The notes under the pieces were generated by a model. It saw only the letters and a program-made list of their open reading frames with translations, was not told where the DNA came from and did no database searches. Below, piece by piece: positions 26,157-39,222 of a stretch of DNA of 64,000 bases. The stretch comes from Akkermansiaceae bacterium (lineage in GTDB: Bacteria; Verrucomicrobiota; Verrucomicrobiia; Verrucomicrobiales; Akkermansiaceae), in assembly GCA_903919975.1 (NCBI GenBank), contig CAIXKE010000112.1:1-64000 (forward strand), given 5' to 3'. Numbering within the stretch: the stretch's first letter is position 1; every line of letters begins with the position of its first letter. The position numbers and the translations under genes were made by a program.

Positions 26157-27452
26157 TCACTTGGTTTGATTGCCAATCCCTGATGTTTTGCCCGATACAT
26201 TCCCGGCAAACACCGGGATGGCGACCTTGAGCAACAATGTGTAAACCATCAAACCCGCAGCCCAGATTCCGGCCATGATTTTCCACTCGGCGGCGCTCGG
26301 AATGTATTCGACCCACTCATGCAGCGTGGATGGTACGAAGCCGGGAATGATCAAACCCATGCCTTTTTCGATCCAGATTCCCACAAACGCGAGCATGCAT
26401 GCGATATCGAGCGTGCGGAGATGATCATGGACTTTCGGGCGCATCAAGAGCACGGCGGCGGTGAGCATAAATGCCAGTGAAACCCATGTCCATGGCACTA
26501 GCGCTTTGAGTTCACCGTGACCGAAAAAAAGATACTTGATCGCGGTGGAGTGAGCACCGCCGGTGTAAAGAGCGACAAAAACCTCTGAACCTAACATCAA
26601 GAGGTCGATCAAAATAGTGATGCGCATGATGGCGACCAGCGTCTGAATCGAACCCGGGCCGATATTCATGCGCGTCATACGGCGGATCAATTGCAGCACG
26701 ACGATGATGAACGCCGGGCCGGCGACAAAGGCCGACGTAAGGAAACGCGGAGCCATCAGGGCCGTGTTCCAGAATGGTCGCCCACCGAGACCGCAGTAAA
26801 GGAAGGCGGTAACGGTATGGATGGAGATTGCCCATGCGATGCTTAGAAAAACGAACGGCACATACCAGCGCTTGTCCGGCGTTTCTCCGAGGAAACGCTT
26901 GTAAAGCATGTAACCGCAGATGTGAAGATTGAGCAAAAGATAGCCGTTCAGCACGATCACGTCCCAGGTGAGCATCGAAATCGGCCAATTGAATTTTCCG
27001 ATAAACGGCAGCATGTGCCAAAAGCGATCCGGCCGGCCGAGATCCGCCACCACGAACATCAGACACATGACAATCGACGCAATGGCCAACAGCTCGCCGA
27101 TGATCACTGTATCATGCATGTCCTTGTCATGATAGATATAAGCCGGAATCACCATCATTACTCCGCCGGCAGCGAGGCCGACGAGGAAGGTGAAATTCGC
27201 AATGTAGAGTCCCCACGAAACATGATCGGTCATGCCGGTGACGACCATGCCCTCAGCCACCTGAGTCGCCCATGCATGAGCGCCGACGAGGAATACGCAG
27301 GTCAGGACGAGCATCCAAACGTAGAACGTCCAGGTTCCCTCGGTCGCTAGACGAAAGGCGAGCCGCAGGAATTTCAGATAGCTGGTCGCGTGAAACTTCG
27401 CGTCGTGATGATTTACTTCCGATTTTCTCGCGGTTGAAATGGATGGATTCAT
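26157..27452 (-). CDS. NrfD/PsrC-family quinol-interacting membrane subunit
   Basis: 431 aa, about ten transmembrane segments, polysulfide-reductase NrfD family. The N-terminal cytoplasmic stretch precedes WTFYVWMLVLTCVFLVGAHAW. Family landmarks are VSWGLYIANFTFLVGLAAGG, in the first core helices, and DLGRPDRFWHML. Such subunits oxidise or reduce membrane quinones without haem and pass electrons to a partner Fe-S protein. Here the Fe-S and cytochrome genes lie upstream on the same strand, divergent from napDA. I infer it feeds electrons to the nitrate reductase, in place of the missing NapC/NapGH. Confidence 0.9.
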   Translation of the reverse strand: MNPSISTARKSEVNHHDAKFHATSYLKFLRLAFRLATEGTWTFYVWMLVLTCVFLVGAHAWATQVAEGMVVTGMTDHVSWGLYIANFTFLVGLAAGGVMMVIPAYIYHDKDMHDTVIIGELLAIASIVMCLMFVVADLGRPDRFWHMLPFIGKFNWPISMLTWDVIVLNGYLLLNLHICGYMLYKRFLGETPDKRWYVPFVFLSIAWAISIHTVTAFLYCGLGGRPFWNTALMAPRFLTSAFVAGPAFIIVVLQLIRRMTRMNIGPGSIQTLVAIMRITILIDLLMLGSEVFVALYTGGAHSTAIKYLFFGHGELKALVPWTWVSLAFMLTAAVLLMRPKVHDHLRTLDIACMLAFVGIWIEKGMGLIIPGFVPSTLHEWVEYIPSAAEWKIMAGIWAAGLMVYTLLLKVAIPVFAGNVSGKTSGIGNQTK

Positions 27453-27490
27453 ACTAAAGTTTGTCTTGCTGGGAGCACTGAATCATGGAG

Positions 27491-27572
27491 CCGCTGAAAC
27501 ACTGAGAACCACTGAATGAACTGATTTTTCTTTGGTTTTCAGTGTAATCAGTGGTGCTCAGTATCTCAGTGG
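27491..27572. repeat. 82-base CACTGA-rich hairpin element, copy 2
   Basis: Starts CCGCTGAAACACTGAGAACC and ends CTCAGTATCTCAGTGG, aligning over its full length with the element at 18007-18088. It lies in the 182-base gap between the Fe-S gene and the NrfD gene, inside a presumed operon. Confidence 0.8.
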
Positions 27573-27634
27573 TAAAATGCTTCGAACATGGCATTGCAGA
27601 TTATTTTACGGCTTGTCGTGAAAACATTCGGGGA

Positions 27635-28606
27635 TCACTCGTCGAAGAAGTAGAAGAAGCTCGGGCGGGTTCCCAATTCCTCCTTAAGAACGAAAACCCG
27701 CTTGTTGTCGATGACCTTGCGAATCTCGGATTCTGGATCCAGCAGGTTGCCGAAAACGCGCGCGCCAGTCGGGCAAGCTTCGAGGCAGGCTGGCATTTTC
27801 CCTTCGCGCGTGCGGTGCAGGCAGAAGGTGCATTTTTCCATCACTCCCTGTGGTCGGATGCGGTTGCTGAGATATGATTGATTCGGGTTGATTTCCTCCT
27901 TGGGAATTTCCGGTTTGGTCCAGTTGAAACGGCGGGCGTGATACGGGCAAGCGGCCTCACAGTATCGGCAACCGATGCACCAGTTGTAATCGACGACTAC
28001 AATGCCATCATCTTCTTTCCAGGTGGCCTCGACCGGACAAACGTGCACACACGGTGGGTTTTCGCATTGTTGGCATTGCACCGGCATGTAAAACTTGTCC
28101 GGATGCGGAACCGGGTGATCGTAATGGGCGTTTCCGTGCTCGATGTCCATCGAACCCTTCTGCATTTCAAGCACGCGGATATAACTGTTACCAGTTACGC
28201 GATCATGGTTGTTCTCATGGTGGCAGGCTTCGGCGCAACGCCGGCAACCAATGCACACGCTGAGGTTCAGCGCATATCCGAATTTAACGCCTTTTTGCGG
28301 TCGGTGGTCGCCGATCGTGACATCCGCTCCATAATCCTTTTTGGTGTCCTCCTCCAGATGTTTGAGCACGGCGGCAAGCTGCTCTTTGTCGAGTTCACGG
28401 TAATGCTGCTGAAGGAAATCATCGACAGAGAGATTGTCCCGGCTCCACGTGGCGAGTGGTGCGAGCGCTTTTGCAAAAGCGGCCGCGCCAAGCGTGACGG
28501 CCGCTCCCTTGAGCAGATTGCGGCGTGTCGAGCCACCGCGATCGACGGGCTCCTGATGGCATCCGCAGCCGCTACCGCATCCGCTGTTAGTAGGTTGGTT
28601 TTCCAT
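27635..28606 (-). CDS. TAT-exported four-cluster 4Fe-4S protein (PsrB/DsrO/HmeA type)
   Basis: 323 aa from the ATG at 28606; a TTG at 28627 overlapping the previous stop is the alternative. The N-terminus has an unusual CGSGCGCHQ motif, followed by a twin-arginine signal (STRRNLLKGAAVTLGAAAFA), so it works in the periplasm. Four cysteine groups are visible: CIGCRRCAEACH, CQQCENPPCVHVCP, CIGCRYCEAACP and CTFCLHRTREGKMPACLEACP. This is the usual electron-transfer partner of NrfD-type membrane subunits. The downstream nrfD-like gene and upstream tetrahaem cytochrome form one module. Confidence 0.92.
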   Translation of the reverse strand: MENQPTNSGCGSGCGCHQEPVDRGGSTRRNLLKGAAVTLGAAAFAKALAPLATWSRDNLSVDDFLQQHYRELDKEQLAAVLKHLEEDTKKDYGADVTIGDHRPQKGVKFGYALNLSVCIGCRRCAEACHHENNHDRVTGNSYIRVLEMQKGSMDIEHGNAHYDHPVPHPDKFYMPVQCQQCENPPCVHVCPVEATWKEDDGIVVVDYNWCIGCRYCEAACPYHARRFNWTKPEIPKEEINPNQSYLSNRIRPQGVMEKCTFCLHRTREGKMPACLEACPTGARVFGNLLDPESEIRKVIDNKRVFVLKEELGTRPSFFYFFDE

Positions 28607-28623
28607 GGGGGTGTGAAGAAATC

Positions 28624-29286
28624 TCAATGGGAAGGTTTGCCGTGCGTGGGAAGGACCGCCTCGCCGATCACCGGTTTGGGAGGAAAGACCGGCATGACTT
28701 GGGGATATGCCGGATGATGCGGATCATGACAATCCGTGCAATGATTCCGCTCGCGGGGGCCTTGTTTCAAATCCCAGTGACCGTTCATTCCGCCGTGGCT
28801 TCCATTCTGATAGTCCCGGTATTGAGGGCCATGGCATTGGGCGCAGAGTCGAATGCTTTCGGAAAAATCCAGTGACTGACCGTCGGCGAGTTTCAAGTTA
28901 TTATAATCTCCCGAATTATGACAACTCAGGCAGGTTTGCGATCCGTGCGCGTATTTCAAACCTTGGTGGAATTCCTTAAGCAAGGCCCCATCATTGGTCT
29001 TCAAATTCGCCGTGCGGGTGTCATGGCAGGTGGCGCAGGCAACCATGATTGGTTGGCCTTTCGTATCCTTTTTTCCTGAGTCCACCCATGGCTCGGCATC
29101 GGGTTTGCGGATCATTACCGGATGCAGAGTTTCACCAATCACCTTTTCAGAAAATGCCCGCCCGGGACGAACCCGATCCCGATATTGCTGCTGCCAGGAC
29201 ATTCCCAACGCACCGACAAACCAGAGTGCGATCACACCGATCACTCCGAAAAACATCCACTTTCCAAGTCGGGTTCCTGCGGCCAT
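28624..29286 (-). CDS. Membrane-anchored tetrahaem cytochrome c
   Basis: 220 aa. One N-terminal anchor (MFFGVIGVIALWFVGALGMSW) precedes a periplasmic domain with four CxxCH sites: CATCH, CLSCH, CAQCH and CTDCH. Extra histidines (GSHGGMNGHW, DPHHPAYP) could be distal ligands. Spacing and surrounding sequence do not match NapC/NrfH closely enough for me to use those names. As first gene of the minus-strand arm, divergent from napD, it is the likely soluble-side relay between the Fe-S/NrfD pair and NapB. Confidence 0.88.
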   Translation of the reverse strand: MAAGTRLGKWMFFGVIGVIALWFVGALGMSWQQQYRDRVRPGRAFSEKVIGETLHPVMIRKPDAEPWVDSGKKDTKGQPIMVACATCHDTRTANLKTNDGALLKEFHQGLKYAHGSQTCLSCHNSGDYNNLKLADGQSLDFSESIRLCAQCHGPQYRDYQNGSHGGMNGHWDLKQGPRERNHCTDCHDPHHPAYPQVMPVFPPKPVIGEAVLPTHGKPSH

Positions 29287-29386
29287 GAGAATTCTTGATT
29301 CGTAACAATTGGAGCATTGACGGCTCCGATGCGGAAGAGACTGAAAACAAGCGTGGTTTAAATCAAGAAAAAATATTCCTTTAATC

Positions 29387-29400
29387 TTGAATCAAATCAA
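29387..29400. promoter_or_regulatory. FNR/CRP-type palindrome between divergent arms of the nap island
   Basis: TTGAA-TCAA-ATCAA matches the FNR consensus TTGAT-N4-ATCAA at nine of ten positions. It lies 38 bases before napD and about 100 bases before the tetrahaem cytochrome gene, so it could act on both arms under oxygen limitation. No promoter was mapped and no fnr gene is in the window. Confidence 0.5.
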
Positions 29401-29438
29401 CAAGGTGCCAAAACAGCTCCCGGAAGGAAGCCAACTCC

Positions 29439-29696
29439 ATGCCTGTGAACGGACTACTATTGACGCTCTCGCCGGATCCCGAAATTGCGGATGCTGCGCT
29501 GGCGCGGATTTCCAAGCGCCCGGAAGTCTCTTTGGGAGATTCGCAGGACCGCTGGCAACCGATCGCCGTCGACACTCTGGATGTGCGGGCGGCCCATGAT
29601 TTTCACGAATGGCTCGAAGCGCTACCCGGCGTCGAGCATGTCGATGTGATTTACGTCGGCTTTGACGAAACCTTACTCACTGAAACCGCGCCATGA
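29439..29696 (+). CDS. napD: NapD, NapA signal-peptide chaperone
   Basis: 85 aa ferredoxin-fold protein. It starts PVNGLLLTLSPDPEIADAAL, the NapD-type opening that packs on the NapA twin-arginine signal, and ends with the usual GVEHVDVIYVGFDE strand. It is cytoplasmic, delaying export of NapA until the cofactor is inserted. The stop overlaps the napA start (ATGA), showing translational coupling. Confidence 0.92.
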   Translation: MPVNGLLLTLSPDPEIADAALARISKRPEVSLGDSQDRWQPIAVDTLDVRAAHDFHEWLEALPGVEHVDVIYVGFDETLLTETAP

Positions 29697-32083
29697 ATCT
29701 GATCGAACGCCGCACCTTCCTGAAAACCTCCGCGCTCGCCGCTGCCAGTGCCGCGGCAGCCGCTCGCGCCCAATCCCCTGCCCCGCCAACTGCAGCTGCG
29801 GATGTGCTAAAATGGGACAAGGCACCGTGTCGGTTCTGTGGAACCGGATGTCATGTGAAAGTCGGCGTGAAGGATGGAAAAGTCGTGGCCATCGCCGGCC
29901 ATCCTGATGCCGCCGTGAACAAGGGCCTGCTTTGTGTGAAGGGCTACCACGTCGGCGGCATCCTCTATGGCAAGGATCGACTAACCGATCCGATGCTCCG
30001 CCGAAACGGCGTCATGGAAAAGATTTCCTGGGAAGAAGCCATCGATATCACCGCTCGTCGCATTATGAAAAACCCCGCGGGTTTTGGCTTCTACACATCC
30101 GGGCAATCGACCATCCCCGAAGGCTACGCCGCCACCAAATTCATGAAGGGTGGGCTTTCCAACAACCACACCGAACCCAACGCCCGCCTCTGCATGGCCT
30201 CCGCTGTCACGGGTTACATCTCGACTTATGGCGTCGACGAACCGGCTGGTTGTTATGATGACCTCGATGCCTGCAATGTCTTGCTGATGTGGGGGAATAA
30301 CATGGCGGAAATGCATCCAGTGCTGTTTTCCCGTATCCTCGACCGGCGGGAACGCGGCCAAAAAGTCACCATCATCGACCTCGGAACACGCCGCACCCGC
30401 ACTTCCGAATTCGCCGATCACTATCTTGAATTCCGCCCGCAGACCGACCTCGCCATCGCCAACTGCATCGCCCAACAACTCATCGAAAGTGGTGCATGGA
30501 ACAAGAAATTCGTGGAAAACCACTGTGCATTTCGCGCCGACGCAGACATCACGAAACCCGACCTCATGGGGGTGGCGATTTCCTTCGATGACTTCAAAAA
30601 TCGCATCGCCGAATACACACCGGAATATGTCAGCGGACTCTCCGGATTATCCGTCGAACAGCTGAAAATGCTGGGCGACCTTTTCGCCGATCCCAACATC
30701 CGCATCACCTCCACTTGGTGCATGGGCATGAATCAGCACACCCGAGGCACCGCGATCAACCGTCTTGTCCACGGCATCCACCTACTCAGTGGGCACTTCG
30801 GCAAACCCGGCGATGCTCCGACATCTCTAACAGGACAACCATCCGCGTGCGGTACCGCTCGCGAAGTCGGCACGCTCTGCCACACGCTTCCCGGCGGACG
30901 CCTCGTTGCCAAGCAACCCCACCGCGAGCAGTGCGAGAAACATTGGAATCTCCCCGCGGGCCGCATCAAGGAAACGCCTGGCTATCACACGGTGCTGTTA
31001 TTCGAAAAGTTCTGCACGCCCAAGGATAAGGGTGGCGACATCGATACCATCATGGTCCAAGTGACCAACCCCGGCCAGACGTTGCCGAATCTCAAAAAAC
31101 TCTACACCGCCAAGATCGGACTCGAAGACAAGTTTCTGATCGTTTCCGACGTCTATCCGACCGCCTCCACCGAGATCGCCGACTTGGTCCTGCCAGCCGC
31201 GATGTGGGTCGAGAAAAATGGTGCGTATGGCAACTCCGAGCGTCGGACGCAGCAATGGTTCAAAATGGTTCAGCCACCTGGCCAAGCGCGTGAGGATGTT
31301 TGGATGACCATCGCCATCGCCCACCGCATGTTCGAACTCGGCCATCCCGGCATGAAGGACAAGGACGGTAAATTCATCTTCACCTTCAAAGATGATGCAG
31401 GAAACGAAGTGCCCGTATGGGATTACGCGCATTTCCACGACATCAATGCCGACCGCGTTCTCTATGAGGAATATCGCCCGCTCACCCACATCAAACACAA
31501 GCACGTCGCGCCCTATGACGAGCTGGTCAAAGCCACCGGAATGCGCTGGCCTGTTGTCGAGCAGCCCGACGGCTCCTATAAAGAAACGCGCTATCGATTC
31601 GTCGAAGGCGAGGATCCTTTCGTAGCCAAAGGCAAAGGGATCGATTTCTATCACTCCACCACCGACGACGGCCGCGCGCAAATCTGGTTCTGCCCGTTTG
31701 AACGCCACCCGGAAGAGCCGGACACCGAATATCCTTTCTGGTTGTGCACCGGCCGTGTCGTCGAGCATTGGCACAGCGGCACCATGACCATGCGCGTGCC
31801 CCAGCTCCGTGGTGCGATGCCGAATGCTTATTGCGAAATCAACCCGGCCGATGCCGCTGCAGCCGGCATCGGAAACGGTGATGACATCATCGTTGCCACG
31901 CGTCGTGGTGAAATTACTCTAACCGCCTGGATCAACGGTCGTGGCCGACCACCGAAAGGTTCCTTGTTCGTGCCGTTTTTCGACGAAAAGCGCCTGATAA
32001 ACAACATCACGCTCGACGCTTATTGTCCGATTTCCAAGGAGCCGGATTACAAGAAGTGCGCCGCCCGGATTCGTAAAGCCTAA
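29693..32083 (+). CDS. napA: Periplasmic nitrate reductase catalytic subunit
   Basis: 796 aa molybdoenzyme reducing nitrate to nitrite in the periplasm, close to the standard NapA length. It has a twin-arginine signal (ERRTFLKTSALAAASAA), a 4Fe-4S motif CRFCGTGCHVKVGVKDGKVV...GLLCVKGY, and NARLCMASAVTGY with the Cys expected to bind molybdenum. WGNNMAEMHPVLF, TSTWCMGMNQHTRGTA and the bis-MGD-binding C-terminal domain (VVEHWHSGTMTMRVPQL) are all present. The moa/mob/moe genes opposite the operon end supply the cofactor. Confidence 0.96.
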   Translation: MNLIERRTFLKTSALAAASAAAAARAQSPAPPTAAADVLKWDKAPCRFCGTGCHVKVGVKDGKVVAIAGHPDAAVNKGLLCVKGYHVGGILYGKDRLTDPMLRRNGVMEKISWEEAIDITARRIMKNPAGFGFYTSGQSTIPEGYAATKFMKGGLSNNHTEPNARLCMASAVTGYISTYGVDEPAGCYDDLDACNVLLMWGNNMAEMHPVLFSRILDRRERGQKVTIIDLGTRRTRTSEFADHYLEFRPQTDLAIANCIAQQLIESGAWNKKFVENHCAFRADADITKPDLMGVAISFDDFKNRIAEYTPEYVSGLSGLSVEQLKMLGDLFADPNIRITSTWCMGMNQHTRGTAINRLVHGIHLLSGHFGKPGDAPTSLTGQPSACGTAREVGTLCHTLPGGRLVAKQPHREQCEKHWNLPAGRIKETPGYHTVLLFEKFCTPKDKGGDIDTIMVQVTNPGQTLPNLKKLYTAKIGLEDKFLIVSDVYPTASTEIADLVLPAAMWVEKNGAYGNSERRTQQWFKMVQPPGQAREDVWMTIAIAHRMFELGHPGMKDKDGKFIFTFKDDAGNEVPVWDYAHFHDINADRVLYEEYRPLTHIKHKHVAPYDELVKATGMRWPVVEQPDGSYKETRYRFVEGEDPFVAKGKGIDFYHSTTDDGRAQIWFCPFERHPEEPDTEYPFWLCTGRVVEHWHSGTMTMRVPQLRGAMPNAYCEINPADAAAAGIGNGDDIIVATRRGEITLTAWINGRGRPPKGSLFVPFFDEKRLINNITLDAYCPISKEPDYKKCAARIRKA

Positions 32084-32089
32084 CCGAAT

Positions 32090-32923
32090 ATGGACAGCCA
32101 CGACATCGAAAGCTACTTCCGACAGCACCGCAAGACACTGGCGGTGGTCTTCCTCGTCGTGTGCATGCTGGCCGTATCAGGGTTTTTCATGGGGATGCGG
32201 CAAACCGAGCATCAGGCGATCCGCAACCAAACACCGACAACGGATCAACCCACATTTACCGCTGCGCAAATCCCCACCGCACCCAAGTATCGGGAAATTC
32301 CCAACACCGAGTGGCATGCCAACCGCGATTGGAAATTCACCCTAGCCGACCTACCACGCGCCGTCGCTCCCCCAACCGGAATTCCCACAGCCTCGCCAGC
32401 GGAAAACGCCGCTGCGATCGAACGACGGAAATTACTGCGTGCCTACGATGGCGCCCCTCCCGTGATTCCCCATGCCATCGATACCCTCAAGTCATCGGCT
32501 TGCACATCCTGTCACGGCGAGAACACAAACCTCGTCATTGGCGGCAAGCGCCCCGCTGAGATCAGCCATCCGTGGATCACCAATTGCACCTCCTGCCACG
32601 TGCCAGCAGACGGCATGCGTGAGCTTACGGAGCCACAGGCGCAGCGCTTGGTTGTGGAGAATGCTTTCGTCGGAAAATCATCAGCCGGTCATGGTCCTAG
32701 GGCCTATGGCACCGCACCACCCACCATGCCTCATGCCGTTTGGATGCGTCAGAACTGCATGGCCTGCCACGGTCCAGGACGCGAACAAGCGATCCGCACT
32801 TCCCATCCGGAGCGCCGGAATTGTCTCCAATGCCATGCGCCGAACGCCGCCTTTGACAATCGGGAAACCTACCTAACAAATCTCAAACCTCCGATCGATT
32901 CCCCGCGGCCACTTCAGCAATGA
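32090..32923 (+). CDS. napB: NapB-like cytochrome with duplicated unit and four haem sites
   Basis: 277 aa with an N-terminal membrane segment (LAVVFLVVCMLAVSGFFMGM). Standard NapB has two haems in about 150 aa. Here four CxxCH sites appear: Cys138/141, Cys166/169, Cys223/226 and Cys245/248. The NapB hallmark before the first haem, YDGAPPVIPH (His128), recurs before the third as YGTAPPTMPH (His215). After the second and fourth come CHVPADG and CHAPNAAF. I read this as two NapB-like halves in tandem. It follows napA by six bases and its stop overlaps the ferredoxin start. Confidence 0.88.
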   Translation: MDSHDIESYFRQHRKTLAVVFLVVCMLAVSGFFMGMRQTEHQAIRNQTPTTDQPTFTAAQIPTAPKYREIPNTEWHANRDWKFTLADLPRAVAPPTGIPTASPAENAAAIERRKLLRAYDGAPPVIPHAIDTLKSSACTSCHGENTNLVIGGKRPAEISHPWITNCTSCHVPADGMRELTEPQAQRLVVENAFVGKSSAGHGPRAYGTAPPTMPHAVWMRQNCMACHGPGREQAIRTSHPERRNCLQCHAPNAAFDNRETYLTNLKPPIDSPRPLQQ

Positions 32924-33276
32924 GCACCATCAGCCGCCGTGATCTTTTTCGCTCCATGCTCGGCCGGCATGCGGAACCCACTGCGCCATCGGTTGCCTTA
33001 CCCGTTAGCGATGAAGCCCCACAGCTAGCCCTCATTCTGGATCGCTTCTGTCTCGCCTACCAAGGATCATTCTGTTCCGTCTGCTCGGAACGCTGCCCGG
33101 AAAACGGCGCAATCGTTGTTGTACAGGGGAAACCCCATGTGAACCCTGATTTTTGCACTGGCTGCAAGGTCTGCCACGAAGTATGCCCAGCGCCGAAGAA
33201 TGCCGTGTTCCTCGTTTCCCGGAAACCTCGACAAGGCATGGTCGCTCGTCCTACCCCAGAACCAGAATCCCCGTGA
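32920..33276 (+). CDS. napF: NapF-like small ferredoxin
   Basis: 118 aa. The N-terminus SRRDLFRSMLGR is typical of NapF. Cysteine groups are FCLAYQGSFCSVCSERCP (C-x7-C-x2-C-x3-C) and CTGCKVCHEVCP, giving two 4Fe-4S sites rather than the four of enterobacterial NapF. NapF is a cytoplasmic protein thought to help mature NapA. The start overlaps the napB stop (ATGA) and the stop overlaps the next gene (GTGA), so it is embedded in a tightly coupled operon. It is shorter than usual, so the name is by similarity and context. Confidence 0.75.
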   Translation: MSTISRRDLFRSMLGRHAEPTAPSVALPVSDEAPQLALILDRFCLAYQGSFCSVCSERCPENGAIVVVQGKPHVNPDFCTGCKVCHEVCPAPKNAVFLVSRKPRQGMVARPTPEPESP

Positions 33277-34540: not shown

Positions 34541-34855
34541 ATGAGTGAATCCTCACCTTTACCTGATCTCCATCAGTCAGAACTCGATGAAGCCACGCTA
34601 CGCCAGTTATTCGAGGATGTCCGCAATCACACCGAACTCATGGAGGTCATTCCGAAACACGCGGCCGCCGCTTACGTTCCGGAAATCGCCGCCATTACCC
34701 TCGCGGAGGGACTTGATTTTCTATTAGCCGGCAGTGTCCGCGCGTTGCAACTCCGCTACCGTCACAACGGCACGATTTGGTGGGACACCCTGATGCCCAC
34801 GCCGCAGAAAACGTTCCGTATCGTCCGCATTCAACATGATTTCTCCGATGCATGA
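34541..34855 (+). CDS. Small unknown protein in the nap operon
   Basis: 104 aa from the ATG at 34541 (MSESSPLPDLHQ); an earlier in-frame ATG lies inside the preceding gene. The protein is acidic at the front (ELDEATLRQLFEDVRNHTEL). It ends in a conserved-looking basic/aromatic segment (LQLRYRHNGTIWWDTLM, FRIVRIQHDF). It has no signal peptide or cofactor motif. It follows the exported unknown by 20 bases and is probably co-transcribed. Function is not recognisable. Confidence 0.75.
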   Translation: MSESSPLPDLHQSELDEATLRQLFEDVRNHTELMEVIPKHAAAAYVPEIAAITLAEGLDFLLAGSVRALQLRYRHNGTIWWDTLMPTPQKTFRIVRIQHDFSDA

Positions 34856-36236: not shown

Positions 36237-36665
36237 TCATTGGTGGCCGGCACAATGATCACAGCGAACCCAGCCGGCATTTCCATCCGCAAAGAATTCC
36301 TTCTTCCAGACAGGAACGCGGGATTTCACTTCGTCGATAATGTATCGGCAGGCGTCAAACGCCGCGTCGCGGTGGGCGGAAGAAACACAGACATACACGG
36401 CCATCTCGCCGATTTCCAAGGGACCGGTCCGATGCACGCAAGCGGCATGCAGAATGCCGAAGCGCTGAATGGATTCTGCTAGAATGCGCTCGCCCTCTTT
36501 GATCGCCAGCGCGGCGTAGGCCTCGTACTCAAGTTTGAGCACCGGCCTGCCCTCATGCTGATTGCGCACCCAGCCCTCAAACGAGCAAAAGCCGCCCGCT
36601 GCAGGATCAAGCACTTGTTTCCGAACGGCTTCGGTATCGATGGGAGATGATGTGAGTTGAAACAT
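36237..36665 (-). CDS. moaE: Molybdopterin synthase catalytic subunit
   Basis: 142 aa large subunit that transfers sulfur from MoaD thiocarboxylate to cyclic pyranopterin. Conserved blocks are GGFCSFEGWVRNQHEG, LEYEAYAALAIKEGERI, HRTGPLEIGEMAVYVCVSSAHRDAAF and VPVWKKEFF with the catalytic Lys. It is last of the cofactor operon and convergent with the porin gene, 13 bases apart. Its small-subunit partner is fused to MobA in the gene just upstream. Confidence 0.96.
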   Translation of the reverse strand: MFQLTSSPIDTEAVRKQVLDPAAGGFCSFEGWVRNQHEGRPVLKLEYEAYAALAIKEGERILAESIQRFGILHAACVHRTGPLEIGEMAVYVCVSSAHRDAAFDACRYIIDEVKSRVPVWKKEFFADGNAGWVRCDHCAGHQ

Positions 36666-36683
36666 GATCGTGAATTTTGATCA

Positions 36684-37499
36684 TCAACCACCCGCGACGG
36701 GCGGGATGAATACGACTTCGTCGTTGGCGGCAATACGGGCACCCCAGTCCGAGAACTCGCCATTGATCGCCACCCGCAAGGTCTCGGTCCCGAGTGGCAG
36801 ACGGTGGCGAAAACACAATTCCTCATAAAGCCCGGCCGCCGTGCAGGCCAATGTTTCAATCGTCTCTTCATCGAGGCCGCGGGCCTCACGAAGTTTGGCG
36901 AAGTAGAGAATCCTAACACTCTTCGATGTGACGCCTTCAGTGATTTTCGCAAAACACTCGCTGAGGTCCGCAGGCGTGTTGGCATTGTCGAGCGCCGCCG
37001 GGTGCGGGAGATCGAGCATTACCGGATCGAGAGATTCCAGGAATTTCCTCGCGCAGCGATTGCCATCGGCGAGCGCGCTTGCGGCGAGCTCCAGTCCAGC
37101 CGTTTCATAGATCGCGCAAAGTGGCTCGGCCCGGCCATCGATCCGGTTTCGAAAACAGATCGCCTTACGAGACGGATCGCGATGCGAAATCAGGAATGCC
37201 AAGGTCTCGCGGTCCATTAGAAATAAATCGCAGCCGAGCACCAGCAAGGGTCCGCCACATGAGGAGGCGGCGGATTCCAACGCCGTGATCGGCCCATCTC
37301 CGGGGTGCAGATCCGGAATCACCGGCAGTTCGATGGTGATCGAGTTTTCATCCCAGAGCGAAAGAAAAACGCCCTCGCAACACTCGCGCGCCAGGCCCGC
37401 AATGTAATCAATCTGGCGGCTGCCATCGGGACGCTCGATGAGCGCCTTGTTGCGGCCCATGCGCTTGCTTTCGCCACCTGCTAGAATGATGGCGTTCAT
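36684..37499 (-). CDS. mobA: MobA-MoaD fusion: Mo-cofactor guanylyltransferase and sulfur carrier
   Basis: 271 aa from the ATG at 37499, which overlaps the moaC stop (ATGA). Residues 1-185 are MobA: AIILAGGESKRMGRNKAL binds GTP, followed by LVLGCDLFLMD with the metal-binding Asp. Residues about 195-271 are MoaD: VRILYFAKLREARGLDEETI with the ubiquitin-like fold, ending in VAGG, the C-terminal Gly-Gly that is adenylated and thiocarboxylated. The two functions are normally separate proteins. Bis-MGD made here fits NapA. Confidence 0.92.
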   Translation of the reverse strand: MNAIILAGGESKRMGRNKALIERPDGSRQIDYIAGLARECCEGVFLSLWDENSITIELPVIPDLHPGDGPITALESAASSCGGPLLVLGCDLFLMDRETLAFLISHRDPSRKAICFRNRIDGRAEPLCAIYETAGLELAASALADGNRCARKFLESLDPVMLDLPHPAALDNANTPADLSECFAKITEGVTSKSVRILYFAKLREARGLDEETIETLACTAAGLYEELCFRHRLPLGTETLRVAINGEFSDWGARIAANDEVVFIPPVAGG

Positions 37500-37969
37500 G
37501 GTGCGGCTTGGTAATCGGATTTCCCACCGGATTTTTCGACCAGACGGATGCCATCGATGACGATGGCGGGATCGAGCGCCTTGCACATGTCGTGCAAGGT
37601 CAATGCGGCGATGCTGGCACCGGTGAGCGCTTCCATTTCCACACCGGTGCGGGCGGTGGTTTTACAGGTGCAGCGGATGAGCGCTTGATTATCGGAAAAC
37701 GTTATCTCGATCTTGCAATCGTCGAGCGGCAGCGGATGGCAGAGCGGAATGAGCGAGGATGTTTGCTTGGCTCCCATCACGCCGGCAAGGATGGCGGTTT
37801 GAAACACCGGGCCTTTTTTCGAAATCAGGTCGCTGCCATTGAATTGCGCGGCGACCGCCCGGTTAACGGTGACGCGGGCTTCTGCCACCGCGCGACGGAC
37901 GGTTTCCGGCTTCGCCGAAACATCAACCATTGCGGCTTTGTTAGTGGAATCAATGTGAGTGAGGGACAT
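37496..37969 (-). CDS. moaC: Cyclic pyranopterin monophosphate synthase
   Basis: 157 aa from the ATG at 37969 (MSLTHIDSTNKAAMVDVSAK). It catalyses the second half of cPMP formation after MoaA. Conserved stretches include LCHPLPLDDCKIEI, TARTGVEMEALTGASIAALTLHDMCKA and LVEKSGGKSDY. The start lies eight bases after the moeA stop and the stop overlaps mobA. moaA is not in the window. Confidence 0.96.
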   Translation of the reverse strand: MSLTHIDSTNKAAMVDVSAKPETVRRAVAEARVTVNRAVAAQFNGSDLISKKGPVFQTAILAGVMGAKQTSSLIPLCHPLPLDDCKIEITFSDNQALIRCTCKTTARTGVEMEALTGASIAALTLHDMCKALDPAIVIDGIRLVEKSGGKSDYQAAP

Positions 37970-37976
37970 GGTGAAA

Positions 37977-39146
37977 TCAGGGAAACGGGTGATAGGCAAA
38001 GGATTGCCCGGGAGTGAAATCTTTTTCCGGCGGAATTTCAACAATTCCCACCGCTCCGGCAATGGAAACATAGTCGCCGGAATTCCTTGGCGGACGCGGA
38101 ATCAATTGACCGTTTGCTGCCACCGCCACGGGAAGCAACCACGAAAATCGCGGCAACGGAGTCAGGTCTTCCAAAGGAATGCGCAACATCAGAGGCGTGG
38201 AAAGTCCTTGGATTTTCAGCAGCGCGGGTAGCACAAACCGCGTAAATGTCGCCAAAACCGAGACCGGATTCCCCGGCAGAGCAAACACCTGGGGCGGGCC
38301 CGACCAATACGCCAGCGGCTTGCCGGGACGCAACTCAACCCCATGAAACGCGGGCGGTCCCAGACTCGTCTCCAGCAAACTGCGGACGTGGTCTTTTTTT
38401 CCCATTGAAATACCGCCACACAGAATGAGCAGGTCGGAATTTTCGAGCGCGTGACGAATCGCTTTGCCCGCCTCTTCAGGATCATCTGAAACATGAAGCG
38501 TTAGATTCGGGGCGCAACCGAGGCGGGTCAATGCCGCTTCGAGCATCGGGCCATTCGAGCGCCGAATCTGCCATGGTTCCGGCACCGCATCCACCGGCAC
38601 CGCTTCATCGCCCGTGGTGATCAGCGCCACCCGCGGGCAACGAAATACCTCGACTTGGGTTTTGCCGACACTCGCCGCAATCGCAATTTCCGCCAGGCCA
38701 AGGCGGTTTCCAGCAGAAACCAGCACATCCCCTTCCTGCGCATCGAGCCCACGCGGATGAATGAATTGGCCGGACTTGAATGGATCAGTTAGAGTGAATG
38801 ACTCCAAGAGGTCTTCATACGGAACCACCGTGTCGCAATCCGCCGGAAGCGCCGCACCCGTCATGATTTCCCAGGCCCCACCCACTTCCAATGGACGCGG
38901 TGGCGGATCCCCGGCGGCATGAAGCCCGGCGATTTTCAGTGCGGCCGATGCGCCGGTTTTCGCCGAATCGAAGGCGACGCCATCCATCATTGCGCGGGAA
39001 AATGGTGGCAACGCCCGATCCGCCACCAGTGGTTCGGCCAAGACCCTGCCGATCGCCCCCGCAAGCGCGGCGGACTCGCTACCGAGTGTCCGGCATGAAC
39101 TCAGAATGTGTGCCTCGGCGGCCCGGATTGAAATGAGCGGATTCAC
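37977..39146 (-). CDS. moeA: Molybdopterin molybdenumtransferase
   Basis: 389 aa from a GTG at 39146 (NPLISIRAAEAHILSS), the best start matching family length. No in-frame ATG sits closer. It inserts molybdate into adenylated molybdopterin. Signature blocks are PPFSRAMMDGVAFDS, GAALPADCDTVVPYED, VALITTGDEAVP, ILCGGISMGKKDHVRSLLE and FALPGNPVSVLATFTRFV. It is the first of the cofactor operon and is separated from upstream proS by a hairpin. Confidence 0.94.
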   Translation of the reverse strand: MNPLISIRAAEAHILSSCRTLGSESAALAGAIGRVLAEPLVADRALPPFSRAMMDGVAFDSAKTGASAALKIAGLHAAGDPPPRPLEVGGAWEIMTGAALPADCDTVVPYEDLLESFTLTDPFKSGQFIHPRGLDAQEGDVLVSAGNRLGLAEIAIAASVGKTQVEVFRCPRVALITTGDEAVPVDAVPEPWQIRRSNGPMLEAALTRLGCAPNLTLHVSDDPEEAGKAIRHALENSDLLILCGGISMGKKDHVRSLLETSLGPPAFHGVELRPGKPLAYWSGPPQVFALPGNPVSVLATFTRFVLPALLKIQGLSTPLMLRIPLEDLTPLPRFSWLLPVAVAANGQLIPRPPRNSGDYVSIAGAVGIVEIPPEKDFTPGQSFAYHPFP

Positions 39147-39222
39147 GCCGTGATGATCATCCGATCGCGCCCACTTGGCGACGCAAAATCCCGCGGTTTC
39201 ACAGACGCGCAAACGAAGCAAT

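Follow-up and report, generated by a model that had tools for sequence, protein, structure and literature searches.

A 64,000-nucleotide stretch of the Akkermansiaceae bacterium genome (GCA_903919975.1, contig CAIXKE010000112.1; host order Verrucomicrobiales), referred to here as the window, carries a gene cluster for periplasmic nitrate reductase (Nap), and this cluster raises the question of which protein delivers electrons from quinol to the enzyme. Scans with Pfam and NCBIfam models found no napC, napG or napH in the window's cluster, in agreement with an initial annotation made from the sequence alone. The same annotation had placed a tetrahaem cytochrome, a Tat (twin-arginine translocation)-type iron-sulfur (Fe-S) protein and an NrfD-type membrane protein, together called the trio below, about 150 bases from napD on the opposite strand; the arrangement was confirmed, with a divergent intergenic region of 152 bp (29287-29438) between the starts of the tetrahaem cytochrome gene and napD. 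The trio is probably the dedicated quinol dehydrogenase of a periplasmic nitrate respiration that is independent of NapC and NapGH. The proposal that it feeds the four-haem NapB and NapA is supported by co-occurrence, by linkage to one branch of NapA, by cofactor motifs and by the finding that no NapH match exceeded the cut-off in any of 25 nap-bearing genomes of the order. Quinol would be oxidised by the NrfD-family protein on its periplasmic side, and the four clusters of the Fe-S protein would relay the electrons to the tetrahaem cytochrome, in a presumed direction and order of carriers; from there they would move to the tandem-duplicated four-haem NapB and finally reach the [4Fe-4S] cluster and the molybdenum site in NapA, where nitrate would be reduced. 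Both cytochromes are presumed to be tethered to the membrane, the proteins to form a complex and the genes to be expressed.

The NrfD-family integral membrane protein (26157-27452, minus strand; 431 amino acids) matches PF03916 with 131.5 bits and has 10 hydropathy segments, the NrfD family having 8-10 helices. It is DsrP-like, scoring 433.9 bits against the NCBIfam DsrP model (NF045798; cut-off 350). A review of the NrfD family lists 20 quinone-site and ion-path residues for DsrP1 (PMC8076601). Nineteen of these are present in the window's protein with small spacing shifts, equivalence being judged by spacing with no DsrP sequence aligned, and 15 of the 19 are invariant in the alignment of NrfD homologues. 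The same matching procedure applied to 300 shuffled sequences gave a maximum of 12 and a mean of 5.8. Because 19 of the 20 DsrP1-type residues occur at matching spacing, quinol oxidation by the NrfD subunit is supported, and energy conservation through proton movement by this protein is possible. The DsrP equivalog model also accepted all six Nap- or HAO-linked NrfD proteins tested (415-434 bits).

The Fe-S protein was recognised by Fer4 families and the DsrO model. Its open reading frame as listed begins with TTG (27635-28627, minus strand), but an ATG at 28606 is the more likely start, which gives a gene at 27635-28606. Sixteen cysteines in four groups and a twin arginine (RR35-36) are invariant in all 18 aligned sequences, and the cysteines are predicted to be the ligands of four [4Fe-4S] clusters. 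The protein scores 195.7 bits against the DsrO model, just below the cut-off of 200, and 133.9 bits against the NrfC equivalog, for which 377.6 is needed. A cysteine-rich CGxxCxC stretch precedes the twin arginine, two of its cysteines being nearly invariant in the 18 sequences.

The tetrahaem c-type cytochrome (28624-29286, minus strand) has one N-terminal hydrophobic helix (residues 11-29), weak c3/c7 Pfam matches and four CXXCH motifs; four further histidines (107, 114, 164 and 190) are invariant in 64 sequences. NapB (32090-32923, plus strand) likewise has an N-terminal hydrophobic helix (17-35; anchor or signal) and matches PF03892 with 43.2 bits over a cut-off of 25.1, with four haems, not two. 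Its four CXXCH motifs are accompanied by four more histidines invariant in 60 sequences. Since the two halves of NapB align with each other (99.5% probability, 38% identity), the protein is a tandem duplication of a dihaem unit, and the dihaem NapB chains of solved structures each correspond to a single such unit in alignments. Every NapB frame above 150 bits among the best 80 of at least 570 confirmed NrfD loci from named genomes also has four CXXCH motifs. The extra invariant histidines would be enough for bis-histidine ligation of every haem in both cytochromes, and such ligation would suit electron transfer over catalysis.

Within the nap operon, NapA, the catalytic subunit (29693-32083, plus strand), scores 882.1 bits against PRK13532 and 851.2 bits against TIGR01706. 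As both values fall below the cut-offs (904 and 930.55), it is a divergent NapA; in the NapA tree it groups with E. coli NapA, apart from FdhF. The napD-like protein (29439-29696, plus strand), encoded directly 5' of napA, matched nothing in Pfam or NCBIfam; from its size, position and likeness to NapD we take it to be the NapA signal-peptide chaperone. The napF-like ferredoxin (32920-33276, plus strand) gave 23.2 bits with TIGR00402 and 31.9 bits with the NapG model, both far below cut-off.

Conservation was followed in 288 genomes of the order and in a phylum-wide sample of 387 genomes, in which NapA was counted at E <= 1e-100; the genome searches scored the best first-pass candidates only, so some NapA may be missed. 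The initial annotation had named a trio found mainly without nap in relatives as the outcome that would speak against it. In the order the opposite was found: NapA of the window's kind occurs in 25 genomes and NrfD in 30, and all 25 are among the 30. The phylum-wide sample gave a divided answer, for all seven NapA genomes carry NrfD, but NrfD is present without NapA in 10 of the 17 NrfD genomes. In 24 of the 25 nap-bearing genomes of the order, NapA and NrfD lie on one contig within 3.5 kb; in the remaining one (G215) they are on two contigs. Conservation of the divergent arrangement had also been put forward as a check, and here only the linkage of nap and trio held, the layout itself not being essential. 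Of the 19 loci of the order whose fetched stretch includes NapA, 12 have the divergent layout and six form one operon in the order nap, cytochrome, Fe-S, NrfD (in one of these napA is cut by the contig end); in the last, situated at a contig end, NrfD is encoded a short way 5' of napD on the same strand. As both divergent and single-operon layouts exist, the linkage is more than an inherited neighbourhood.

Beyond the order, the best 80 of at least 570 named NrfD loci (at least nine of the 80 being DNA also present in the order sample) contain NapA above 400 bits in 69 cases, an HAO-like protein in one and neither in 10. Three of these 10 have NapA pieces, six lie on contigs of 3.5-8.1 kb and in one the trio stands at the contig start. 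By label, the 80 belong to Verrucomicrobiota, Planctomycetota and Myxococcota, together with one Acidobacteriota, one Sumerlaeota and two Pseudomonadota metagenome-assembled genomes (MAGs). At the locus of Rubritalea profundi (L141), napA is spread over several broken frames, and low scores were obtained for NapB and the tetrahaem cytochrome, with the Fe-S and NrfD genes intact. In another family of the class (L122, L124, L126, L128, L130 and L131), a related trio was observed near a DmsE-like 7-haem protein; in L122 a protein resembling an outer-membrane barrel, with no Pfam match, comes next, and a link to extracellular electron transfer is possible.

Two phyla were also searched from the NapA side, with 255 Planctomycetota genomes (51 with a NapA match) and 195 Myxococcota genomes (38 matches in 32 genomes). 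Loci were divided at 1000 bits against the window's NapA, a value chosen after the scores had been seen, and a NapA tree was built as a check. Above this value, 22 of 23 Planctomycetota loci have at least one trio gene, the remaining one being an 8.7-kb contig, and so do all 12 Myxococcota loci and one with a split NapA, many of which are close relatives. Where at least 6 kb was available on both sides, the full trio was found in 11/11 Planctomycetota and 10/10 Myxococcota loci (and in the one with split NapA), against 3/19 and 0/17, respectively, below 1000 bits. Counting all loci below 1000 bits, trio genes occur in 7 of 28 in Planctomycetota, six of them with an HAO-like gene on the same stretch, and in none of 24 in Myxococcota. 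The NapA tree comprises 111 rows including the window, and was calculated by a quick method without bootstrap; NapA frames of 600 amino acids or less were left out, two stretches without NapA (L070 and L073) were omitted from the NapA tables, and three rows (L074-L076) have identical NapA. One branch of 56 rows, with a Shimodaira-Hasegawa-like approximate likelihood ratio test (SH-aLRT) value of 100, spans Verrucomicrobiota, Planctomycetota and Myxococcota. In 54 of its rows an NrfD or Fe-S gene is nearby, and the other two (L250, which has the cytochrome gene, and L266) are on short contigs. The trio label requires seven changes over the tree, compared with a shuffled mean of 35.8. The linkage counts and the tree together indicate that a distinct NapA branch keeps the trio across three phyla; a few NapA outside this branch are accompanied by it as well.

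At eight loci (L118, L268, L270, L279, L281, L284, L292 and L293), one stretch combines NapA and trio genes with an HAO-like octahaem protein; the L118 protein was tested and matched PF13447. It is possible that such stretches represent a complete nitrate-to-ammonium unit on one quinol donor. At seven other loci (L271-L273, L277, L278, L282 and L287), NapA of another branch adjoins an HAO-like octahaem protein and a four-haem NapB, and on the fetched stretches of these loci no trio, NapG or NapH was found.

A napC or napGH elsewhere in the genome and co-regulated with napDA had been named as a further point on which the proposal could fail. NapH exceeded the cut-off in none of the 25 nap-bearing order genomes, and napG had no search of its own. 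Weak NapH matches occur in 22 of these 25 genomes and likewise in 12 of 14 control genomes; the window's genome (112 contigs, completeness 97.59) has two, neither over the cut-off, one of which scores as NuoI. NapC-family matches occur in four of the 25, three of them over the cut-off, and in G132 the match lies beside an NrfA-like frame. One of these points against our interpretation, as the window's own genome contains a NapC/NirT-family domain on another contig, in a 508-aa frame whose 500-aa translation has six CXXCH motifs; this gene is not with nap, and the genes preceding it encode a small cytochrome and a putative outer-membrane barrel. Further evidence weighs on the same side. Among 30 named genomes with nap and trio (30 of the 80 loci were examined), 23 have a NapC-family match, 22 of them over the cut-off. 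For 22 of these 23 genomes, one or more such matches lie beside a frame of 413-656 aa with 4-5 CXXCH motifs, an NrfHA layout as judged by size and haem count only, and in G643 a 22-haem frame takes its place; some further matches in the named genomes sit in larger multihaem frames. The window's genome also encodes alternative complex III (ACIII; ActD 207 bits and ActC 588 bits against the solved complex), and ACIII or NapC/NirT-family multihaem proteins are conceivable electron donors to NapB. Most other types of NapA do without the trio, and the module type is not nitrate-specific, because trios without nap account for 5 of 30 NrfD genomes in the order and 10 of 17 in the phylum-wide sample. 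No believable structural relative was found for the models of the tetrahaem cytochrome (predicted local distance difference test score, pLDDT, 83) or NapB (pLDDT 74), a result that says little since the models lack haems. Finally, genomes from one genus or family are not independent.

The trios without nap bear on an alternative in which the trio is a general quinol-to-periplasm hub for several acceptors (HAO-like nitrite enzymes, porin-cytochrome conduits and nitrate), nap being one customer among them. Related trios do adjoin HAO-like octahaem proteins (PF13447), and this is the case in two (G007 and G065) of the five order genomes with NrfD and without NapA; the fetched stretches of the other three (G071, where the trio is at a contig end, G241 and G279) hold neither NapA nor an HAO-like protein. 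In the 10 NapA-less genomes of the phylum-wide sample, the trio has a DmsE-like 7-haem protein beside it in six, an HAO-like protein in one and neither in three. However, those NapA-less copies that are present as rows in the NrfD tree sit apart from the nap-linked copies of the order. This tree retained 126 of 157 sequences, near-copies being left out, and gave long-branch warnings; the window's own copy was not included, but relatives of 78-80% identity were. The trio is moreover a near-constant companion in the window's NapA branch, and a general hub is therefore considered unlikely.

Less probable still is a route to NapB by way of soluble cytochromes that are reduced by ACIII or another cytochrome c reductase, with the trio otherwise employed. 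The presence of ACIII genes in the window's genome would allow it, and in Campylobacter jejuni an electron supply to Nap from menaquinol-cytochrome c reductase has been described (PMC6195509). The ACIII genes are on another contig (C38), however, and it is the trio that is linked to nap in three phyla. A sulfur-respiring DsrMKJOP complex with the trio as its DsrJOP-like part is hardly credible: the DsrP model was exceeded and the DsrO model nearly so, but the cytochrome is tetrahaem and matched no DsrJ-named model (the presence of such a model in the library being unchecked), and dsrA (TIGR02064) was over the cut-off in none of 55 genome handles, a search without a positive control, as none of 14 control genomes reached the cut-off either. 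At least three genomes are present twice among these handles (G109/G640, G132/G639 and G157/G641 are the same DNA); weak dsrA matches occurred in 12 of the 55, and the window's genome had no match at all. The DsrJOP reading was set aside after this search; dsrM, dsrK and dsrJ were not searched for.

A dedicated quinol dehydrogenase thus remains the preferred reading of the trio. A stronger form of it can be put forward only tentatively and is rather doubtful as a whole: the nap branch in three phyla would be driven by a proton-translocating NrfD-type quinol dehydrogenase, giving direct energy conservation, and NrfD, the Fe-S protein, the tethered tetrahaem cytochrome, the tethered four-haem NapB and NapA would form one membrane supercomplex aided by a 104-aa protein. 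The gene for this last protein (34541-34855, plus strand) accompanies this nap variant. It was found in 47 of 54 loci with NapA above 1000 bits, in two further loci where a NapA of this kind is truncated or split, and in none of the 55 other NapA loci, the profile having been built from such matches. The protein has no match in Pfam or NCBIfam, and eight of its residues (D26, L61, Q70, Y73, W80, D82, T83 and R96) do not vary across 56 aligned rows.

Modules of NrfD, Fe-S and multihaem proteins are an established class. E. coli NrfBCD, which passes electrons from menaquinol to NrfA, likewise combines a multihaem cytochrome, a four-cluster Fe-S protein and NrfD for a periplasmic N-oxide reductase, but it has the pentahaem NrfB and NrfA as acceptor; no nrfD equivalog is among the matches of the window's NrfD, and the window's Fe-S protein is far below the NrfC model. 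DsrJOP resembles the trio in that DsrP and DsrO are the best NCBIfam matches of the window's NrfD and Fe-S proteins and the quinone and ion-path residues are kept by spacing. It differs in its trihaem cytochrome, in place of which the window has a tetrahaem one with NapAB as partner, and no DsrA was over the cut-off in the searched genomes. NapC- or NapGH-dependent Nap performs the same catalytic task and shares NapD-, NapA-, NapB- and NapF-like proteins, but its quinol dehydrogenase is from another protein family, and the window's NapB is duplicated. Clusters of the same composition in Methanoperedenaceae and MBNT15 have been proposed as quinol:cytochrome c oxidoreductases, with no tie to periplasmic nitrate reductase in the passages concerned (PMC7327174, PMC9386147). 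The Nap system of Caldithrix abyssi also lacks NapC, has a tetrahaem carrier (NapM) and an adjoining HAO-type gene; in the passages describing it, NapGH or Rieske/cytochrome b is the proposed donor, and NapB is absent (PMC5317091).

The electron route had been put forward as one not recognised as described, and this claim stands in part. Within the open-access literature (preprints and most subscription journals lying outside it), no paper was found that proposes the trio as Nap quinol donor, and the main text of the NrfD-family review contains neither 'Nap' nor 'nitrate reductase' (PMC8076601). Such a cluster near nap has nevertheless been noted already: a 2023 paper reported multihaem, 4Fe4S and nrfD genes near nap in the Planctomycetota MAGs OFTM8 and OFTM33 (PMC10732223). 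In the relevant part of that paper the cluster, which includes actD and lies near nap and a putative nxr, is given a general respiratory electron-transfer role and not that of a Nap quinol donor. Two of our loci (L165 and L166) belong to MAGs bearing these names and have the trio beside napA and napB.

Other features of the window include molybdenum cofactor genes downstream of nap (moaE, mobA-moaD, moaC and moeA; 36237-39221, minus strand), identified by NCBIfam matches. The 152-bp divergent gap contains one imperfect FNR-like box at 29387, and a similar pattern found no FNR-type box in the divergent gaps of 11 relatives.

As far as genomic comparison can tell, the inference made from this single locus is well supported and reaches beyond its original scope. 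The trio offers an answer to how nitrate respiration could proceed in bacteria with no napGH and, in most cases, no napC; it can also serve as a genomic marker for this type of Nap. The NCBIfam DsrP model may mislabel Nap-linked NrfD proteins as subunits of sulfate reduction. The quinol dehydrogenases that feed Nap are generally regarded as conserving no energy (PMC6195509). If the donor is of the NrfD type and carries the proposed ion-path residues, the energy yield attributed to nitrate respiration in these organisms would have to be revised.

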